Below are positions 22,715 through 51,540 of a DNA stretch of 64,000 bases, piece after piece. The notes beneath the pieces are model-generated. The model saw only the letters and a program-made list of their open reading frames with translations, was not told where the DNA came from and made no database searches. This stretch comes from Uloborus plumipes (lineage: Eukaryota > Arthropoda > Arachnida > Araneae > Uloboridae). The stretch covers positions 1 to 64,000 of the forward strand of contig JAXGGA010004643.1 of the NCBI GenBank assembly GCA_038373865.1, read 5' to 3'. Positions within the stretch are counted from its first letter, which is position 1. Every line of letters begins with the position of its first letter. A program made the translations under genes and the position numbers.

Positions 22715-22742
22715 AGTAGTATATAAAGGCCGGTTCTGCTGC

Positions 22743-22776
22743 GGGAGGGGGTGTTGGGGTGTTAACACCCCCTCCC
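22743..22776. repeat. GC-rich hairpin near left terminus
   Basis: GGGAGGGGGTGTT pairs with AACACCCCCTCCC across an 8-nt loop. An alternative fold is the 16-bp perfect palindrome GGGGTGTTAACACCCC at its centre. It lies 28 bp inside the outer end of the palindrome, a place where linear DNA elements often keep replication or end-processing structures; that role is inference. Confidence 0.75.
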
Positions 22777-22871
22777 AATCCACCGCCTCCACCGCGATCC
22801 CCTCCCACCGCGCCGCCTCCCTCCCACCGTGCCACCTCCCCCCTCCACCTCCCCAGGGCCGCCGCGAGGGT

Positions 22872-22974
22872 TTTCGCGCGAATTTTGAATATTTTCCCGC
22901 GAATTTTCGAACTTTGTATTATTTTCGTGAAAGGTTACAAGGGTTTTTCCCGCGAATTTCTGAATATTTCCCGC
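22872..22974 (+). promoter_or_regulatory. Cluster of four E2F-like sites, left arm
   Basis: The octamers TTTCGCGC (22872-22879) and TTTCCCGC (22893-22900, 22946-22953, 22967-22974) fit the E2F/DP consensus TTTSSCGC or TTTSGCGC. Each is followed by GAATTT, so the unit CCGCGAATTT behaves as an iterated motif. Four matches within 103 bp in AT-rich DNA are unlikely to be chance. They may couple a promoter or an origin to S phase, or be iterons bound by an element-encoded protein; both are inference. Confidence 0.5.
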
Positions 22975-23087
22975 GAATTTTAGGACTGAATTATTTTCGT
23001 GAACTTTATTTTATTTTAGGTGCTCGTGCTGCCATCTATTGAGTGAATGAATTTAATTCTTTTTTTTATTTTCGGACTTTGTCAATT

Positions 23088-23169
23088 TCCCGAAGCGGGG
23101 TTCGAACTCGAACCAAAAGTTTTCCTCTTGCTTATCAGAAGAATGCGCAAGCCAACTACGCTATGGTGT
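23088..23169 (-). other. tRNA-like segment, left arm
   Basis: Mirror copy of the right-arm segment at 31528-31609, with pol III A-box-like and B-box-like words. The cloverleaf is degenerate and it is not a functional tRNA by eye. Confidence 0.35.
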
Positions 23170-24035
23170 TCTTATTCTCGTCAGTGCTGATAGGGATCAC
23201 AATATAATTTAAGATTATATCGTCGTCTATTGATTACCCGATGATGTTAATTTGCATGCTAATTTATTTTTATAATTCGAACTTTGTCTAATTTTTCCAG
23301 ATTAGTTTTTGTAACATATCTCAATATAATTTTTGGTATTAACGAACGATGATGCTGCCATCTGTTGGTGGAAATTTATTTTTTTTTCGAATTTAATTAT
23401 TTCTTCGAACTTAATTTATTTTTCAAACCGAAATCGGACTTTGTAAATGAAAATTAATTTTTTTTATGTTTATTTTCTTCTAAGTTTCATTTCATGAGTA
23501 TAAGTTTTTTTTTTTTCGTTTTCAATAAGATCTCGTGAAGTTCAGCTTCAGGAAAATTGCCTTTAGTCTTTTAGACTTGGAGAGTTATTATTTTTTTAGC
23601 ATTTATTTTTCGAAATTTTACAATGTTATTAGTATATTTTCTTTTTTTTTGCATCTTAAGTTTATGAAATTTCCTGAGTTGAATGTAACGTTTGAACAAC
23701 ATTTTATTATGTTAGTTTCAGTTTTATCGTTTCGCCATTAATACTGTATAATATTTTCTTCTAAGTTTCATTTCATGAGTATAAGTTTTTCTATTTCAAT
23801 AATATTTTCAGAGGAATATTTTGTATTAAGAAAATTTGTTTACATACGAAGATTATTTTAGAAAAATAATATTCAATGTGTTAGAATTTTTTTTTCCTTT
23901 TTGCAGAAAAGTTTTAAGTGATGAAAATTTTTAAATGAAGAAAAATTAATTTTCAAAAAATATTTGCGAGGAAAGTTTTGCTTACGAAAAAATTTAAGTT
24001 AGATTGAAAAAAATTTCTCTTTTTTTTTCTCTCTC

Positions 24036-24111
24036 TCTCTCGAATCCATACTATGTGACTAATGTTAATACTTAAATTTGCTTTTGACTTCAAAGTCTTT
24101 GTTTCTTTTCT
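24036..24111. repeat. 76-bp direct repeat, left arm outer copy
   Basis: Identical to 25345-25420 in the same orientation. Contains the short palindrome GACTTCAAAGTC. Preceded by a CT microsatellite only in this outer copy. Confidence 0.85.
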
Positions 24112-24478
24112 CATAGTATAACATGATTTATATTAAACAAGTTTGCGATAATTATTTGCACTCATTGCGTTACTTACAACTTGTACTTCTATCTAAATTA
24201 TTATGAATGTAAATTTATCGTAGCTATTTCTTAACAAGTCTGACATTAATTTATTGCATTCATCTAATTAATTACATCTTATGCTCCTATCTGAATTATT
24301 TTGAATGTGAATTTAACAACTTTCACACCAATCATGCATTACATTTTTTTTTTTTCTCCCACATTGTTTACTTTTTACGTGTTTGAAAGATTTTATGTCG
24401 GAAAAAGTTTAGTGTTTATGAAATATCATTGAGGAATACTTTGTGATAAAAAAATTTTCGAACTTCAATTATTTTTAC

Positions 24479-24538
24479 ACGAGGTGAGTATCGAACATGC
24501 GACCTTCTGATCCAAAAAGCATTTTCCTTAGCTGTTAG
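24479..24538 (-). other. Second tRNA-like segment, left arm
   Basis: Mirror copy of 30159-30218. On the minus strand TGTTCGATACT resembles a B box and AGCTAAGG an A-box core. Pairing is poor, so this is only a weak suggestion. Confidence 0.2.
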
Positions 24539-25344
24539 AAATTATTTTTCCCCACTTTATATTTTCAAGTAATCCAAATTACTTCTTTCACAATCAAATA
24601 TGATTTTAATTTCACCAATTTTTATTATTTCCAAAAACGAGCAAAATATTAGAATTTACTCTTAGTATTAATTATGATGAATCATTATCATTTTCTGAAT
24701 TTTACTTTCTCTCAATTATATTTTCGAATCTCATGAGAATTTTATTTAGGAATTCCCGACTTTGCATGTTTTTTCACGAATTTTACTGTGAAATTTTTTT
24801 TCCATCGTCAAAATTTAAAATCAATTCGATACACTCAAGTTAACATTGGTTTATACATTCGAACAAACAAATTTTTTTTACATTCACTATCATTTCACCC
24901 AATGAAACTTATAAAACACTTTAACTCGCTCAACACTTGATAAAAAATTGAACTATACGTATTATTTTGCATGCAATCAATTGAAATGAAACAAGAAACT
25001 TACCTTTATGTTGAGCGAATCACAGCGATGTCCTATGAATGAATGGCGAGTAGTAAAAGCAATAAAAGAGATTACACTAAATGAGTTGGTATTTCAATTT
25101 ACAACAACAAATGATGTAATCCCCCTCATACTTTATTTCGCACATCAACACAAATCCAAAAACAGACATCTCGTGAAATTTGCATCAAAAGCCGGGAGTC
25201 AACGAAAATCACAGGAGTCCTTCCGAAACATTTCAACAACCATTTCCATCAAACCCAAGGCTACAAATGATTTATCTTGATCAAATCTGACCTCATGCTG
25301 ATAACTAAAGATCACATGACGTCTTATCAGCAGCAAGCACATGA

Positions 25345-25420
25345 TCTCTCGAATCCATACTATGTGACTAATGTTAATACTTAAATTTGCTTTTGACTTC
25401 AAAGTCTTTGTTTCTTTTCT
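25345..25420. repeat. 76-bp direct repeat, left arm inner copy
   Basis: Exact second copy of the 76-bp segment at 24036-24111. With the mirror copies in the right arm it occurs four times in the palindrome. Confidence 0.85.
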
Positions 25421-26406
25421 ATTATTTTTCAGGACTCGATTTTTTTTTTCTTTTTCCAAGTCAATTGAAATTAATTTTTGTTATGCGAGCGAGCCCACTA
25501 ACCCGGCGTATTTAATTCTTTAATTATTTTACTCCTTTAATCACTTCATTTCTTTAATCACTTTATTTCTCTAATTACTTTTTATAATTTTCGAAAGAAA
25601 CAATTCATTATTTATATCAAAGTTAGAGTTAAATTATTTACAATCGAATTAATTTTAGAACGTACATTAACACAAGTAGCTTTTACCTGTAATTATTTTA
25701 GACGATTTCACACCTTTAACCTTATTTTTTCTCAATTTCAGGTTTTCATTCTATGTATTTTTTTAATCTATATGTGAATTTAAGTATTTTTAATTAATTT
25801 TTTTTTCATCACAAATAATTTTCCCAACAAAATTTTTTTTCTAAACTTACAAAAATTTTTTCACAAATAATTTTTTTTAAAACTTGTAAAAAATTTTTTC
25901 CAATCCTCAGTGACTTTTATGTGATTGTCTATTTTAAGAATATAATATACTCTTAGGTATTAATTCAGATGGTTTTTTTTTTTTTTTATTCATCATTAAT
26001 TGAAATGTACATATTCCTGCTACAATGAAGAAAACTTACCTTGCATATGCTGTCGCCATAACACTAATATTTTAAAACCTAATTGATAGAATTTCTCATA
26101 ATTAATATTCCTCATCACGAAATAGAATTCGAAATCATTTCCAATTTCTGCTAAAGTTATAATTTAAATATTTTTATTCTAATTATTTATAATCAACGCT
26201 AGAATTTTCACCATCCACAAACTGAAACAGAAAACTTTAATTTTACTCCTAAAAAAACTTTAACTTAGTATATTTTTTTTTTTTACATCACAAAGTAAAA
26301 TTCTACAGTAATAAAGAATTTCATCATTAACTAAAATAATAAAAAAAAAAAACCATTTAATAATAATAATAATAATAATAAGAAATACATAAAATAAATA
26401 TCATAT

Positions 26407-26973
26407 TTACATCGAGAAAATCTCTTGATAGTTACAATTTTCATTCACAACGTAATGAATGAAGTACTCATTGGCAACTGCACATATGTTGTGTAAATGT
26501 TCTAAAGTGATATTGTTCAGTTGATACCGCCTTACCGATCTCTGCACACGGCAAACACAATTATGTAACTCATAATGCATGGCATAGAGTTTCAAATGGG
26601 CTGTAAACTTTTGTAATTCAGCAAAATAGTCATGTCGGCAAATGGGGCATGTAGGGTTTTTAATCCCCCAAAGAAGGGCACATTTTTCATGCATAACATG
26701 ACCGCATTGTAATTGAAGGAATATACCTTCTCCTTCCATCAGGCAGATCGGACATGCTTCCTCAAAATCCACCAAACGACTCACACGCATATCCACATAA
26801 AGCCCTTCATCATTATAATTCTCCAGATATGACTCACTACTATTTCGTATTATTTGTAGCATATTGTAAAGATGCTCACATTCATTATCGGTATTACTTC
26901 CAGAATTCAGTTCATAAATTGAAGTAAAAATCCACCGAAACAAACGAACACACTCTACCATATTTACACACAT
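26407..26973 (-). CDS. RING-H2 finger protein, left-arm copy
   Basis: A 188-codon uninterrupted frame with a single RING-H2 finger at residues 74-112: Cys74, Cys77, Cys90, His92, His95, Cys98, Cys109 and Cys112 in the C3H2C3 spacing C-x2-C-x12-C-x-H-x2-H-x2-C-x10-C-x2-C. RING-H2 domains bind two zinc ions and usually recruit a ubiquitin-conjugating enzyme, so an E3 ubiquitin ligase role is likely from the family. The N-terminal 70 residues and the C-terminal 75 residues, which are rich in His, Tyr and Asn, match nothing I recognise. No signal peptide or membrane segment is evident. The start is the first ATG in a fair context (A at -3). The protein is identical to that of the right arm and the two genes diverge from the palindrome centre. 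Small intronless RING proteins are common in large DNA viruses of arthropods, but a captured host gene is equally possible. Confidence 0.8.
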   Translation of the reverse strand: MCVNMVECVRLFRWIFTSIYELNSGSNTDNECEHLYNMLQIIRNSSESYLENYNDEGLYVDMRVSRLVDFEEACPICLMEGEGIFLQLQCGHVMHEKCALLWGIKNPTCPICRHDYFAELQKFTAHLKLYAMHYELHNCVCRVQRSVRRYQLNNITLEHLHNICAVANEYFIHYVVNENCNYQEIFSM

Positions 26974-27723
26974 CTTTTAACAATTCTCAATCAGCATCAA
27001 CTAAGCGAACTAGCTAAAGCATATGAGTCACACTCTCCCCTAATATCCAGTCACGAACGCTGCACGACATGAAAACAGGTTATACGAGAATTTCAGTGTT
27101 ATTAGTAAGCACTCTGATTCATCACCCCAACAACTCCAGCCCACAAATTTCAAGCTATCATATTGTTCCGATTAGCTCCTTCACAAAGTTAGAGTTTAAT
27201 TATTTGCAATCGAATTAATTTTTAGAGCATACAATAAACAAATGTAGTTTCCGTCTATTATTATAGTTTTGGAGAATTTTACACCTTTTATGATTTTAAT
27301 TTCAACAATTTTTTATTATTTCCAAAACGCAAAATATTAGAATTTACTCAAATTCTAATATTTTGCTCGTTTTGGAAATAATAAAAAATTGTTGAAATTA
27401 AAATCATAAAAGGTGTAAAATTCTCCAAAACTATAATAATAGACGGAAACTACATTTGTTTATTGTATGCTCTAAAAATTAATTCGATTGCAAATAATTA
27501 AACTCTAACTTTGTGAAGGAGCTAATCGGAACAATATGATAGCTTGAAATTTGTGGGCTGGAGTTGTTGGGGTGATGAATCAGAGTGCTTACTAATAACA
27601 CTGAAATTCTCGTATAACCTGTTTTCATGTCGTGCAGCGTTCGTGACTGGATATTAGGGGAGAGTGTGACTCATATGCTTTAGCTAGTTCGCTTAGTTGA
27701 TGCTGATTGAGAATTGTTAAAAG

Positions 27724-28290
27724 ATGTGTGTAAATATGGTAGAGTGTGTTCGTTTGTTTCGGTGGATTTTTACTTCAATTTATGAACTGAATTCTGGAAG
27801 TAATACCGATAATGAATGTGAGCATCTTTACAATATGCTACAAATAATACGAAATAGTAGTGAGTCATATCTGGAGAATTATAATGATGAAGGGCTTTAT
27901 GTGGATATGCGTGTGAGTCGTTTGGTGGATTTTGAGGAAGCATGTCCGATCTGCCTGATGGAAGGAGAAGGTATATTCCTTCAATTACAATGCGGTCATG
28001 TTATGCATGAAAAATGTGCCCTTCTTTGGGGGATTAAAAACCCTACATGCCCCATTTGCCGACATGACTATTTTGCTGAATTACAAAAGTTTACAGCCCA
28101 TTTGAAACTCTATGCCATGCATTATGAGTTACATAATTGTGTTTGCCGTGTGCAGAGATCGGTAAGGCGGTATCAACTGAACAATATCACTTTAGAACAT
28201 TTACACAACATATGTGCAGTTGCCAATGAGTACTTCATTCATTACGTTGTGAATGAAAATTGTAACTATCAAGAGATTTTCTCGATGTAA
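27724..28290 (+). CDS. RING-H2 finger protein, right-arm copy
   Basis: Second, identical copy of the 188-residue RING-H2 protein, with all eight zinc ligands (Cys74 to Cys112) intact. Its start lies 374 bp from the palindrome centre, and the two copies are transcribed away from each other, so the central 750 bp must hold both promoters. No clear TATA box is seen in the 100 bp upstream. A stretch of TAT repeats follows the stop codon, and an AATAAA at 28519-28524 could serve polyadenylation. An intact frame in both arms argues against long-standing neutrality, or else for recent duplication or gene conversion. Confidence 0.8.
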   Translation: MCVNMVECVRLFRWIFTSIYELNSGSNTDNECEHLYNMLQIIRNSSESYLENYNDEGLYVDMRVSRLVDFEEACPICLMEGEGIFLQLQCGHVMHEKCALLWGIKNPTCPICRHDYFAELQKFTAHLKLYAMHYELHNCVCRVQRSVRRYQLNNITLEHLHNICAVANEYFIHYVVNENCNYQEIFSM

Positions 28291-28637
28291 ATATGATATT
28301 TATTTTATGTATTTCTTATTATTATTATTATTATTATTAAATGGTTTTTTTTTTTTATTATTTTAGTTAATGATGAAATTCTTTATTACTGTAGAATTTT
28401 ACTTTGTGATGTAAAAAAAAAAAATATACTAAGTTAAAGTTTTTTTAGGAGTAAAATTAAAGTTTTCTGTTTCAGTTTGTGGATGGTGAAAATTCTAGCG
28501 TTGATTATAAATAATTAGAATAAAAATATTTAAATTATAACTTTAGCAGAAATTGGAAATGATTTCGAATTCTATTTCGTGATGAGGAATATTAATTATG
28601 AGAAATTCTATCAATTAGGTTTTAAAATATTAGTGTT

Positions 28638-28663
28638 ATGGCGACAGCATATGCAAGGTAAGT
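28638..28663 (+). promoter_or_regulatory. Splice-donor candidate in the palindrome (right arm)
   Basis: ATGGCGACAGCATATGCAAG is followed at 28658 by GTAAGT, a consensus 5' splice site just after an ATG. It suggests a short first coding exon downstream of the RING gene, but I could not identify the acceptor. Mirrored in the left arm near 26034-26059. Confidence 0.35.
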
Positions 28664-29275
28664 TTTCTTCATTGTAGCAGGAATATGTACATTTCAATTA
28701 ATGATGAATAAAAAAAAAAAAAACCATCTGAATTAATACCTAAGAGTATATTATATTCTTAAAATAGACAATCACATAAAAGTCACTGAGGATTGGAAAA
28801 AATTTTTTACAAGTTTTAAAAAAAATTATTTGTGAAAAAATTTTTGTAAGTTTAGAAAAAAAATTTTGTTGGGAAAATTATTTGTGATGAAAAAAAAATT
28901 AATTAAAAATACTTAAATTCACATATAGATTAAAAAAATACATAGAATGAAAACCTGAAATTGAGAAAAAATAAGGTTAAAGGTGTGAAATCGTCTAAAA
29001 TAATTACAGGTAAAAGCTACTTGTGTTAATGTACGTTCTAAAATTAATTCGATTGTAAATAATTTAACTCTAACTTTGATATAAATAATGAATTGTTTCT
29101 TTCGAAAATTATAAAAAGTAATTAGAGAAATAAAGTGATTAAAGAAATGAAGTGATTAAAGGAGTAAAATAATTAAAGAATTAAATACGCCGGGTTAGTG
29201 GGCTCGCTCGCATAACAAAAATTAATTTCAATTGACTTGGAAAAAGAAAAAAAAAATCGAGTCCTGAAAAATAAT

Positions 29276-29351
29276 AGAAAAGAAACAAAGACTTTGAAGT
29301 CAAAAGCAAATTTAAGTATTAACATTAGTCACATAGTATGGATTCGAGAGA
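29276..29351. repeat. 76-bp direct repeat, right arm inner copy
   Basis: Reverse complement of the left-arm inner copy. It overlaps a short open frame that is not supported as a gene. Confidence 0.85.
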
Positions 29352-29663
29352 TCATGTGCTTGCTGCTGATAAGACGTCATGTGATCTTTAGTTATCAGCA
29401 TGAGGTCAGATTTGATCAAGATAAATCATTTGTAGCCTTGGGTTTGATGGAAATGGTTGTTGAAATGTTTCGGAAGGACTCCTGTGATTTTCGTTGACTC
29501 CCGGCTTTTGATGCAAATTTCACGAGATGTCTGTTTTTGGATTTGTGTTGATGTGCGAAATAAAGTATGAGGGGGATTACATCATTTGTTGTTGTAAATT
29601 GAAATACCAACTCATTTAGTGTAATCTCTTTTATTGCTTTTACTACTCGCCATTCATTCATAG

Positions 29664-29698
29664 GACATCGCTGTGATTCGCTCAACATAAAGGTAAGT
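29664..29698 (+). promoter_or_regulatory. Mini-exon candidate with acceptor and donor (right arm)
   Basis: A pyrimidine-rich stretch ending CATTCATTCATAG (AG at 29662-29663) precedes 29 bp, which are followed by GTAAGT at 29693-29698. The pair of signals would define a tiny exon. Mirrored in the left arm at about 24998-25033. Weak without transcripts. Confidence 0.3.
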
Positions 29699-30158
29699 TT
29701 CTTGTTTCATTTCAATTGATTGCATGCAAAATAATACGTATAGTTCAATTTTTTATCAAGTGTTGAGCGAGTTAAAGTGTTTTATAAGTTTCATTGGGTG
29801 AAATGATAGTGAATGTAAAAAAAATTTGTTTGTTCGAATGTATAAACCAATGTTAACTTGAGTGTATCGAATTGATTTTAAATTTTGACGATGGAAAAAA
29901 AATTTCACAGTAAAATTCGTGAAAAAACATGCAAAGTCGGGAATTCCTAAATAAAATTCTCATGAGATTCGAAAATATAATTGAGAGAAAGTAAAATTCA
30001 GAAAATGATAATGATTCATCATAATTAATACTAAGAGTAAATTCTAATATTTTGCTCGTTTTTGGAAATAATAAAAATTGGTGAAATTAAAATCATATTT
30101 GATTGTGAAAGAAGTAATTTGGATTACTTGAAAATATAAAGTGGGGAAAAATAATTTC

Positions 30159-30218
30159 TAACAGCTAAGGAAAATGCTTTTTGGATCAGAAGGTCGCATG
30201 TTCGATACTCACCTCGTG
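30159..30218 (+). other. Second tRNA-like segment, right arm
   Basis: CAGCTAAGG near 30162 and TGTTCGATACT at about 30199-30209 look like decayed A and B boxes around a TTTTTGGATCAGAAGG stem-loop. Only weak evidence for tRNA ancestry. Confidence 0.2.
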
Positions 30219-30585
30219 TAAAAATAATTGAAGTTCGAAAATTTTTTTATCACAAAGTATTCCTCAATGATATTTCATAAACACTAAACTTTTTCCGACA
30301 TAAAATCTTTCAAACACGTAAAAAGTAAACAATGTGGGAGAAAAAAAAAAAAATGTAATGCATGATTGGTGTGAAAGTTGTTAAATTCACATTCAAAATA
30401 ATTCAGATAGGAGCATAAGATGTAATTAATTAGATGAATGCAATAAATTAATGTCAGACTTGTTAAGAAATAGCTACGATAAATTTACATTCATAATAAT
30501 TTAGATAGAAGTACAAGTTGTAAGTAACGCAATGAGTGCAAATAATTATCGCAAACTTGTTTAATATAAATCATGTTATACTATG

Positions 30586-30661
30586 AGAAAAGAAACAAAG
30601 ACTTTGAAGTCAAAAGCAAATTTAAGTATTAACATTAGTCACATAGTATGGATTCGAGAGA
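30586..30661. repeat. 76-bp direct repeat, right arm outer copy
   Basis: Reverse complement of the left-arm outer copy, followed by the GA microsatellite. Confidence 0.85.
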
Positions 30662-31527
30662 GAGAGAGAAAAAAAAAGAGAAATTTTTTTCAATCTAACT
30701 TAAATTTTTTCGTAAGCAAAACTTTCCTCGCAAATATTTTTTGAAAATTAATTTTTCTTCATTTAAAAATTTTCATCACTTAAAACTTTTCTGCAAAAAG
30801 GAAAAAAAAAATTCTAACACATTGAATATTATTTTTCTAAAATAATCTTCGTATGTAAACAAATTTTCTTAATACAAAATATTCCTCTGAAAATATTATT
30901 GAAATAGAAAAACTTATACTCATGAAATGAAACTTAGAAGAAAATATTATACAGTATTAATGGCGAAACGATAAAACTGAAACTAACATAATAAAATGTT
31001 GTTCAAACGTTACATTCAACTCAGGAAATTTCATAAACTTAAGATGCAAAAAAAAAGAAAATATACTAATAACATTGTAAAATTTCGAAAAATAAATGCT
31101 AAAAAAATAATAACTCTCCAAGTCTAAAAGACTAAAGGCAATTTTCCTGAAGCTGAACTTCACGAGATCTTATTGAAAACGAAAAAAAAAAGCTTATACT
31201 CATGAAATGAAACTTAGAAGAAAATAAACATAAAAAAAATTAATTTTCATTTACAAAGTCCGATTTCGGTTTGAAAAATAAATTAAGTTCGAAGAAATAA
31301 TTAAATTCGAAAAAAAAATAAATTTCCACCAACAGATGGCAGCATCATCGTTCGTTAATACCAAAAATTATATTGAGATATGTTACAAAAACTAATCTGG
31401 AAAAATTAGACAAAGTTCGAATTATAAAAATAAATTAGCATGCAAATTAACATCATCGGGTAATCAATAGACGACGATATAATCTTAAATTATATTGTGA
31501 TCCCTATCAGCACTGACGAGAATAAGA

Positions 31528-31609
31528 ACACCATAGCGTAGTTGGCTTGCGCATTCTTCTGATAAGCAAGAGGAAAACTTTTGGTTCGAGTTCGAACCCC
31601 GCTTCGGGA
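31528..31609 (+). other. tRNA-like segment, right arm
   Basis: TAGCGTAGTTGG (31534-31545) resembles a pol III A box and AGTTCGAACCC (31589-31599) a B box, at tRNA-like spacing. A CTGATAA sequence sits where an anticodon loop (GAT) would be, but the anticodon and acceptor stems do not pair well and there is no T-run terminator directly after. It is probably tRNA-derived (SINE-like or a captured tRNA), not a working gene. Confidence 0.35.
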
Positions 31610-31722
31610 AATTGACAAAGTCCGAAAATAAAAAAAAGAATTAAATTCATTCACTCAATAGATGGCAGCACGAGCACCTAAAATAAAATAAAGTTCACGA
31701 AAATAATTCAGTCCTAAAATTC

Positions 31723-31825
31723 GCGGGAAATATTCAGAAATTCGCGGGAAAAACCCTTGTAACCTTTCACGAAAATAATACAAAGTTCGAAAATTCGCGG
31801 GAAAATATTCAAAATTCGCGCGAAA
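31723..31825 (-). promoter_or_regulatory. Cluster of four E2F-like sites, right arm
   Basis: Mirror copies at 31723-31730, 31744-31751, 31797-31804 and 31818-31825, read as GCGGGAAA or GCGCGAAA on the plus strand. Same reasoning as the left-arm cluster. Confidence 0.5.
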
Positions 31826-31926
31826 ACCCTCGCGGCGGCCCTGGGGAGGTGGAGGGGGGGGGGGGAGGTGGCACGGTGGGAGGGAGGCGGCGCGGTGGGA
31901 GGGGATCGCGGTGGAGGCGGTGGATT

Positions 31927-31960
31927 GGGAGGGGGTGTTAACACCCCAACACCCCCTCCC
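31927..31960. repeat. GC-rich hairpin near right terminus
   Basis: Mirror copy of the left terminal hairpin, with the same 13-bp stem and the same embedded 16-bp palindrome, 28 bp inside the right end. Confidence 0.75.
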
Positions 31961-31988
31961 GCAGCAGAACCGGCCTTATTATACTACT

Positions 31989-50339: not shown

Positions 50340-51540
50340 TGTGTAAGATTCGTCACAGCAGTTCTGCGGTCAAAACGTAATGAGAACTTTAAGCGAACAC
50401 CCCTCCCCCCCCCCCACCCGCCGTTTATTGATGAGTAACGATTTATTGTTTTAAAGAAAATTTGAAAAGCCAATTTGTTCTGGAAGTTTCGTTGCTGACG
50501 TTCTGTCGCCAAAATATAAAAGCCCGTAGAACTTAAAACGCTGCGCCCCTCGATTCTCTCAACAGGAAGAGTTAATAGTTTAAAGATCATTTGAATAACT
50601 GATATGCGCTGCAAGTTTCGTCTCTGAAGTTCTGCGGCCAAAATGTGAAAGACCGCGAAACTTCAGGCAAGTACCCCCAATCCCGCGATTCTCTCACGAG
50701 GAAAAAATTTTTTGAACATTGTCGAATATCTAATTTGTACCGCAAGTTTCGTCACTGAAGTTCTGCGGATAAAATGTGTAGGCCCGCAGAATTTCAAACG
50801 AAGCCCGTTTTCCCGCGATTCTATAACACGGAAGAATTAATTGTTTGAAACAAAATTTGAATAACTATAGTTTGTACTGCAAGTTTCGTCACTGAAGTCC
50901 TGCGGATAAATGTGTAGGGCCCCCGCAGAACTTCAAACGAATCCCGCTCCCCGCGACTCTTCAACGCGGAAGAATCAATTGTTTTAAACATAATTTGAAA
51001 AACTATTTGCACTACAAGCTTCGTCACTGAAGTTCTGCGGCCAAAATGTGAAAGCCCGAAGAATTTCAAAGAAGCTTGCGTCCCCGCGATCCCCTCATGA
51101 GGAAACATGGTTTTAAACATAACTGAATATCTAATATATGCTACGAAGTGTCGTCACTGAAGTTAAGCGGATAAAATGTGAAGACCTGCAAAACTTCAAT
51201 TGAAAACCTGCGCCCCTGCGATTCTCTTGCGAAAACATTTCAAACATAATTTGAAGAACTGATTTGTGTACCTCTACCGCAAGCTTCGTCACCTAAGATC
51301 TGCGGCCAAAATGTGAAAGCTCGCAGAATTTCAGACTAAGTTTGCGTCCCCGCGATTCTCATGCGGAAAAAAAAATAATCGTTGGAAACATTATTTGAAT
51401 AACGAATGTGTACTGCAAGTTTCGTAACTAAAGTTCTGCGGCCCAAATAAGAAGGACTGCAGAACTTCAAACGAAGCCTGCGCAAGTGTCATCGCTGAAG
51501 TTCTGCGGAAAAATCAGGAAGGTCCTCAGAAGCTCAAGTC
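50340..51540. repeat. Tandem array of about ten diverged units, period 130-140 bp
   Basis: The core CGTCACTGAAGTTCTGCGG, with variants, recurs at about 50350, 50488, 50619, 50748, 50888, 51021, 51151, 51287, 51423 and 51490. Other conserved parts are CCCGCGATTCTC and AAAATGTGAAAGCCCG. The last interval is only 67 bp. The minus-strand open frames over it (145 and 99 codons) show repeated peptide blocks because of the repeat, with no domain. Confidence 0.85.

Follow-up and report, generated by a model that had tools for sequence, protein, structure and literature searches.

Mavericks (or Polintons) probably use protein priming for their replication, and little is known of the intermediates that they form outside the chromosome. 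Other protein-primed linear DNAs can become palindromic. The linear yeast plasmid pGKL1 has palindromic derivatives, F1 and F2, in which one end of the plasmid gives rise to a hairpin monomer and to a palindromic dimer, and there are symmetric (palindromic) defective adenovirus genomes, in which one end of the replicon is duplicated head-to-head. Foldback/Galileo elements and miniature inverted-repeat transposable elements (MITEs) are also non-autonomous and have long inverted repeats. Near-perfect long palindromes are usually held to be unstable. Here we analyze a 64,000-nucleotide stretch of the genome of the spider Uloborus plumipes (contig JAXGGA010004643.1, positions 1 to 64,000; we call this whole stretch the window) and a 9,274-bp palindrome within it, at 22715-31988. 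In this genome we find a family of giant, palindromic Maverick derivatives that are non-autonomous but mobile; the anatomy of the copies and their insertion as palindromes show that the family is real. The window element is probably a copy of a fully palindromic, non-autonomous Maverick derivative that was born by fold-back and spread by Maverick enzymes.

Passages of a study of vertebrate Mavericks (PMC8097293) give (AGT)2//(ACT)2 as their commonest end motif and 6 bp as the length of their target duplications; the intact elements are 12.7-24.6 kb long, and their core genes lie between terminal repeats of 46-1,447 bp. The window element has the same ends, (AGT)2...(ACT)2, as the commonest motif in those passages. 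It also resembles these Mavericks in having terminal inverted repeats and, in its near relatives, 6-bp target-site duplications (TSDs), and gene-bearing elements with homologous ends are present in its genome. In contrast to vertebrate Mavericks as those passages describe them, the window element is entirely inverted repeat and has no core gene among the open reading frames (ORFs) that we tested. The pGKL1 derivatives are likewise protein-primed linear DNA, but they belong to a plasmid of the yeast cytoplasm and not to an inserted chromosomal family. Defective adenovirus genomes are by-products of virus growth, whereas these elements are inherited mobile elements with cargo. Foldback/Galileo elements and MITEs depend on other transposase families, while the window family has Maverick-type ends. 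We found no description of a palindromic Maverick in the open-licence literature that we surveyed.

Inserted palindromes with flanking TSDs would record folded-back linear intermediates, so that the mode of replication could be read from genomes. They also show that near-perfect palindromes of 9-15 kb have entered an animal chromosome and persisted there, and how such elements can carry other genes along, for example those for RING-H2 and C2H2 zinc-finger proteins. More broadly, the family hints at an unusual copying mode for linear mobile DNA.

The palindrome in the window

A preliminary description, made from the sequence alone, had noted two arms of about 4.6 kb that mirror each other around 4 bp. 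The arm-versus-arm alignment confirms this, with 3 substitutions and 12 gap columns in 4,641 columns:

22715..27345, + strand: left arm, 4,631 bp (inverted-arm alignment)
27346..27349, no strand: palindrome centre ACTC (arm alignment; the same centre, inverted, is in locus C403)
27350..31988, - strand: right arm, 4,639 bp (inverted-arm alignment)

The arms differ by TA/AT at 22724-22725, by C6 versus C12 near 22837, by the lengths of T tracts, and by one T/C inside a T tract. The left arm also lacks 2 bp (GA) about 17 nt from the centre. On either side, the homology ends precisely at AGTAGT / ACTACT, and the flanks are dissimilar to each other; the preliminary description was thus right that the homology stops at a repeat-like terminus next to unrelated sequence. 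The chance of AGTAGT at one fixed position is 3.4e-4.

Palindromic relatives and their insertion

The preliminary description had proposed a search for other copies with the 22715 end and had named their absence as a refuting outcome. We compared window positions 22715-23500 to this genome (1.42 Gb in 25,906 contigs). There were at least 84 matches (with 40 of 584 candidates scored), so other copies exist in the same assembly and that refuting outcome did not occur. We fetched 36 stretches overall. The first eight loci were picked because they had matches in opposite orientation, and six of them are palindromes (C403, C1588, C512, C1364, C5547, and C5362), which makes seven with the window. 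The other two (C80 and C4846) have 1.6-kb terminal repeats that flank a non-repeated interior. Such pairs could be picked only where the first matches included both ends, and the proportion of palindromes and Mavericks among them should therefore not be read as a census. The palindromes span 9,274 bp (window), 9,263 bp (C403), 14,056 bp (C1588), 14,890 bp (C512), 14,950 bp (C1364), 11,883 bp (C5547), and 9,079 bp (C5362), and the longest arms are 7.5 kb.

Perfect 6-bp TSDs flank 5 of the 7 palindromes: GTTCAC at C403, TCCGGC at C512, TACCAG at C1588, CACCCA at C5547, and TATGTT at C5362. For comparison, the TSDs of C80 and of C10193 (a short two-ended element that we count neither as a palindrome nor as a Maverick) are perfect, and that of C4846 has one mismatch. 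Because C403, which is the sister copy of the window element, has GTTCAC on both sides, these elements insert as whole palindromes.

Other loci were cut by contig ends, shortened, or partial, and stand outside the seven palindromes (C7724, C24167, C19409, C16400, C25616, C25102, C216, C8966, C7723, C539, C14051, and C24088), as do loci with short pieces at most (C20844, C5594, C7575, C19471, C12154, and C24502). C8966 (L029) and C7723 (L042) are partial palindromes in which one arm is shorter, which looks like the later loss of part of an arm from a symmetric copy. Five contigs (C7724, C24167, C19409, C16400, and C25616) end within the element, 0.1-1.1 kb beyond the family match; the assembly may break inside such palindromes, so that copies are undercounted. 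C24088 (L025) has two window-type left ends in the same orientation, and the second adjoins position 25128 of the first one's arm. This second end starts with AGTAGTAGTATA, which is an extra AGT; slide-back at the end would yield it. C10193:27017-29178 (L041) is a 2.16-kb element with the family's ends and a perfect 6-bp TSD (CTTATC), and it encloses a smaller palindrome.

Relation to gene-bearing Mavericks

The proposal that the element is a non-autonomous relative of Mavericks/Polintons holds up: it shares its ends with C80-type Mavericks, and its near relatives have 6-bp TSDs. C80 is 11,858 bp long with the TSD TATATG, and its ends are homologous to those of the window family. One stretch of the window relates directly to these Mavericks:

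22987..23472, + strand: block that matches the terminal repeats of C80 and C4846 at about 93% identity (sequence comparison)

C80 has genes above the Pfam cut-offs for a 2OG-Fe(II) oxygenase, an rve integrase with a chromodomain, and an A32-like ATPase, and it has an adenain-like (adenovirus-protease) match below the cut-off. A 447-amino-acid protein of C80 matches ASFV_360 below the cut-off. This protein has 1,696 database relatives, and the named ones among the 120 listed are mostly F54H12.2 or F54H12.2-like, which we take to be a name used for the major capsid protein of Polintons. Its nearest named relatives are from Uloborus diversus (76%), Stegodyphus mimosarum (71%), and Araneus ventricosus (70%); it has no relatives in viral contigs. 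C80 (L019/L020) and C4846 (L021/L022) are nearly identical Mavericks at two loci, and the oxygenase frame is broken in C4846. By BLAST, C3029 and C624, which also have inverted ends, are kin to C80 and C4846 over most of their length.

It had been suggested that some copies might enclose polymerase, integrase, or capsid genes. C80 has the integrase and a capsid-like protein, but no ORF of the size of PolB (the Maverick DNA polymerase) lies within the 11.9 kb of the C80/C4846-type Mavericks. PolB itself is present in the genome: PF03175 has at least 46 matches (91 of 98 candidates were scored), and 11 of these are in stop-free frames of 908-1,282 amino acids. None of the 46 are on C80, C4846, C3029, or C624. 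Two of the PF03175 matches have equal scores and lie 5.8 kb apart in opposite orientation (C9930:15996-17501, - strand, and 23282-24787, + strand). Judging by coordinates alone, C9930 is perhaps a PolB-bearing palindrome, or else two elements head to head.

Centres of the palindromes

C403 is the window element in opposite orientation. It is 99.6-99.8% identical to the left half of the window element, and both have the centre AGAATTT-ACTC-AAATTCT. One palindromic ancestor is the simplest source for a centre that two loci share, but folding may also have happened twice at one hot spot. The arm that lies left of ACTC is slightly short in both copies, at one corresponding position, by 2 bp in the window and by 4-5 bp in C403. 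C512, C1364, and C216 have a different centre. They share one asymmetric centre, which is found in either orientation, and in C512 and C1364 it turns back at AAGAAAATT...AATTTTCTT.

The palindromes also depart from the colinear window arm at various points: C1364 and C512 at 23890-23891, C1588 at 24443, and C7723 near 23896 with a different pairing partner. C1588 and C7723 are 99.5% identical over 4.2 kb, yet their centres are unlike. The unpaired centre is about 186 bp in C1588 and about 1.14 kb (1,139 bp) in C5362. Because the centres differ among subfamilies, the palindromes arose more than once. In the window element, the similarity of the left arm to its internal repeat extends through ACTC and ends where the palindrome turns. 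Self-priming at short complementary stretches would be expected to leave such marks at the turning point.

The preliminary description had compared the element to the concatemer junctions of hairpin-ended genomes. We find no support for hairpin telomeres or concatemer resolution: a single conserved resolution site at the centre, as for a telomere resolvase acting on hairpin-ended elements, was not found, and the centres differ between subfamilies.

Similarity of the arms

We counted substitutions between the two arms of each palindrome, outside of the outermost and innermost 250 bp, where the ends and centres align poorly. There were 0 in C403, 1 in the window, 1 in C1364, 2 in C512, 6 in C5362, 38 in C1588, and 81 in C5547, so inserted palindromes seem to diverge between arms over time. 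In the five arms of C512, C1364, and C216 (the outer 7.3 kb of each), there are 13 gap-free variable sites. At 9 of these 13, both arms of C1364 are set apart from the other three arms, and the other 4 are specific to a single arm. Similarly, the window element and C403 differ by one interior substitution, which is present in both arms of each. The equality of the arms would most simply be set when the copy is made.

How the palindromes might arise

These results strongly suggest that the palindromes originated by fold-back. In the mechanism that we propose, a linear Maverick genome would be copied by protein-primed, strand-displacing synthesis, and a 3' end would fold back onto a nearby complementary stretch and copy itself. 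One end of the product would be a hairpin, and the other would be a genuine Maverick terminus. The next round of copying would convert it to a head-to-head palindrome that has a genuine terminus on each side. This palindrome would retain both origins and both integrase sites, so it could be copied and inserted by the enzymes of other Mavericks. If replication alternates between the hairpin and the dimer, then passage through the hairpin would re-make both arms alike in every round.

A stronger version of this mechanism is possible, and we offer it tentatively: palindromic Mavericks might be a self-perpetuating form of the genome, in which a single arm cycles between a hairpin monomer and a palindromic dimer, and the arms are re-made identical at each transposition. 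This form might have arisen repeatedly, perhaps also with PolB in both arms (C9930).

Several observations weigh against a fold-back origin and spread by Maverick enzymes. First, a TSD is missing at the window (TTCCTT/CCCGGT) and at C1364 (ATCGTT/CACAAT). Because the window element lacks a TSD and a near-identical copy exists elsewhere, its flanks may have been joined by recombination or by misassembly (that is, a misjoin of the flanks in the window copy alone), and this would not affect the conclusion about the family. Second, the centre-side deletion differs in size between the window and C403, and thus does not trace the two copies to a single event. Third, the unpaired centres of C1588 and C5362 exceed what a simple snap-back needs. 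Fourth, the variants that are shared between arms could stem from gene conversion between young arms. Fifth, no Maverick core protein was found among the tested ORFs of the window, and the Mavericks that share its ends seem to be without PolB, so the copying enzyme would have to act in trans. Finally, the family is seen as chromosomal copies, and an extrachromosomal form is what we infer from them.

Instead of folding back, a Maverick with very long terminal inverted repeats might have lost its interior, which would leave the repeats back to back. The 1.6-kb terminal repeats of C80 and C4846 would fit this, and the outer part of the window arm is shared with them. We think this is unlikely, though, because arms reach 7.5 kb and the arms of C5362 mirror sequence that in C80 is interior and single-copy. 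(For the same reason, the earlier idea of a head-to-head joined pair of terminal repeats needs correcting, as the arms hold more than the repeats.) Also, a number of the palindromes turn at short hairpin loops, and the positions of these vary. Among the loci that we fetched, which are part of the family, none had window-type arms that flank a unique interior, as such a parent would.

Another explanation is that the palindrome formed after insertion, by inverted duplication in the chromosome or by recombination there between two oppositely placed single copies. The window copy, having no TSD, would fit this, but it has element termini on both outer sides, whole palindromes lie between TSDs at other loci, and two loci have one centre in common, so a post-insertion origin is very improbable. 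The least plausible explanation is that the palindrome is an artefact of fold-back in the assembly or the library. In its favour, the arms of the window copy differ mostly in tract lengths, several relatives stop at contig ends, and misjoins of near-identical copies would leave the window and C1364 without TSDs. However, 5 of 7 palindromes have perfect TSDs with unlike flanks on the two sides, a single folded molecule would not have arms that differ by 38 or 81 substitutions (as in C1588 and C5547), and the same centre is at two loci with different flanks.

The RING-H2 gene and other ORFs

The preliminary description had reported an intact gene in each arm, and each arm does have an ORF for a RING-H2 protein:

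26407..26973, - strand: RING-H2 ORF of the left arm, 188 amino acids, reads outward from the centre (ORF list)
27724..28290, + strand: RING-H2 ORF of the right arm, 188 amino acids, reads outward from the centre (ORF list; Pfam zf-RING_2, E = 2.1e-10)

None of 500 dinucleotide shuffles of the arm reached 188 codons (the longest shuffle ORF noted was 182). The protein has all eight C3H2C3 ligands as well as a tryptophan ahead of the last CPIC, which is presumably the position that contacts the E2. By its sequence, it looks like a working E3 ligase. Among solved structures, the RING domain alone was matched, with Arkadia as the best. A structure model built without an alignment had a low mean pLDDT (predicted local distance difference test) of 33.9. 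A search of the protein database gave 2 candidate relatives, neither significant, and none with the RING region alone; there were also none in viral contigs or in bacterial and archaeal contigs. In the spider's genome, contig C13627 has a third copy that is 96% identical across the 188 amino acids and free of stops. This contig has a second, inverted piece at its start, so it is perhaps another palindrome.

Both arms thus carry the RING-H2 gene as cargo. The cargo varies among palindromes: C1588 has a C2H2 zinc-finger ORF (L011 3956-5071). Besides RING, we compared to Pfam 10 of the 31 right-arm ORFs (those listed have at least 45 amino acids) and 10 other long ORFs of the window, and none had a match at the cut-off. 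Thus, of the proteins sought in these ORFs, RING was found alone, and the set of an autonomous Maverick (PolB, integrase, capsid, ATPase, and protease) was not.

Ends and other features

The remaining features of the arms are:

22715..22736, + strand: left terminus, (AGT)2 motif and conserved AAGG..GTTC block (homology boundary; pattern common to family termini)
31967..31988, - strand: right terminus, same motif inverted (homology boundary; pattern common to family termini)
22743..22776, + strand: subterminal hairpin with a stem of 13 bp (z = -3.9; an equally good fold in 1 of 200 shuffles)
31927..31960, - strand: mirror subterminal hairpin, 13-bp stem (z = -4.1; 0 of 200 shuffles)
22867..23003, + strand: left-arm tandem duplication of 74 bp that includes 4 E2F-like sites, TTTSSCGC (repeat and shuffle analysis)
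31694..31830, - strand: mirror E2F-like duplication, right arm (repeat and shuffle analysis)
24961..25420, + strand: block 97.4% identical to palindromes C512 and C1364, including a 90-amino-acid ORF at 25008-25280 (sequence comparison)

Both the hairpins near the ends and the clusters of E2F-like sites had been noted before. The hairpins are stable beyond shuffled sequences, and the 4 TTTSSCGC sites in each arm exceed all 200 shuffles (mean 0.275, maximum 3). In contrast, the tRNA-like parts that had been proposed were not recovered: ARAGORN (with bacterial settings) found no tRNA genes in the window, and Rfam had no hits at the gathering score in the window, or up to E = 1 in the right arm, although a degenerate tRNA fragment could escape either search. 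The mirror copy of the 90-amino-acid ORF has no Pfam match at the cut-off. The exact terminal and inner DNA patterns of the window element were absent from the viral contigs and the genome contigs that were searched. Outside of the palindrome, at 50445-51199, the window has an array of diverged units of about 129 bp.

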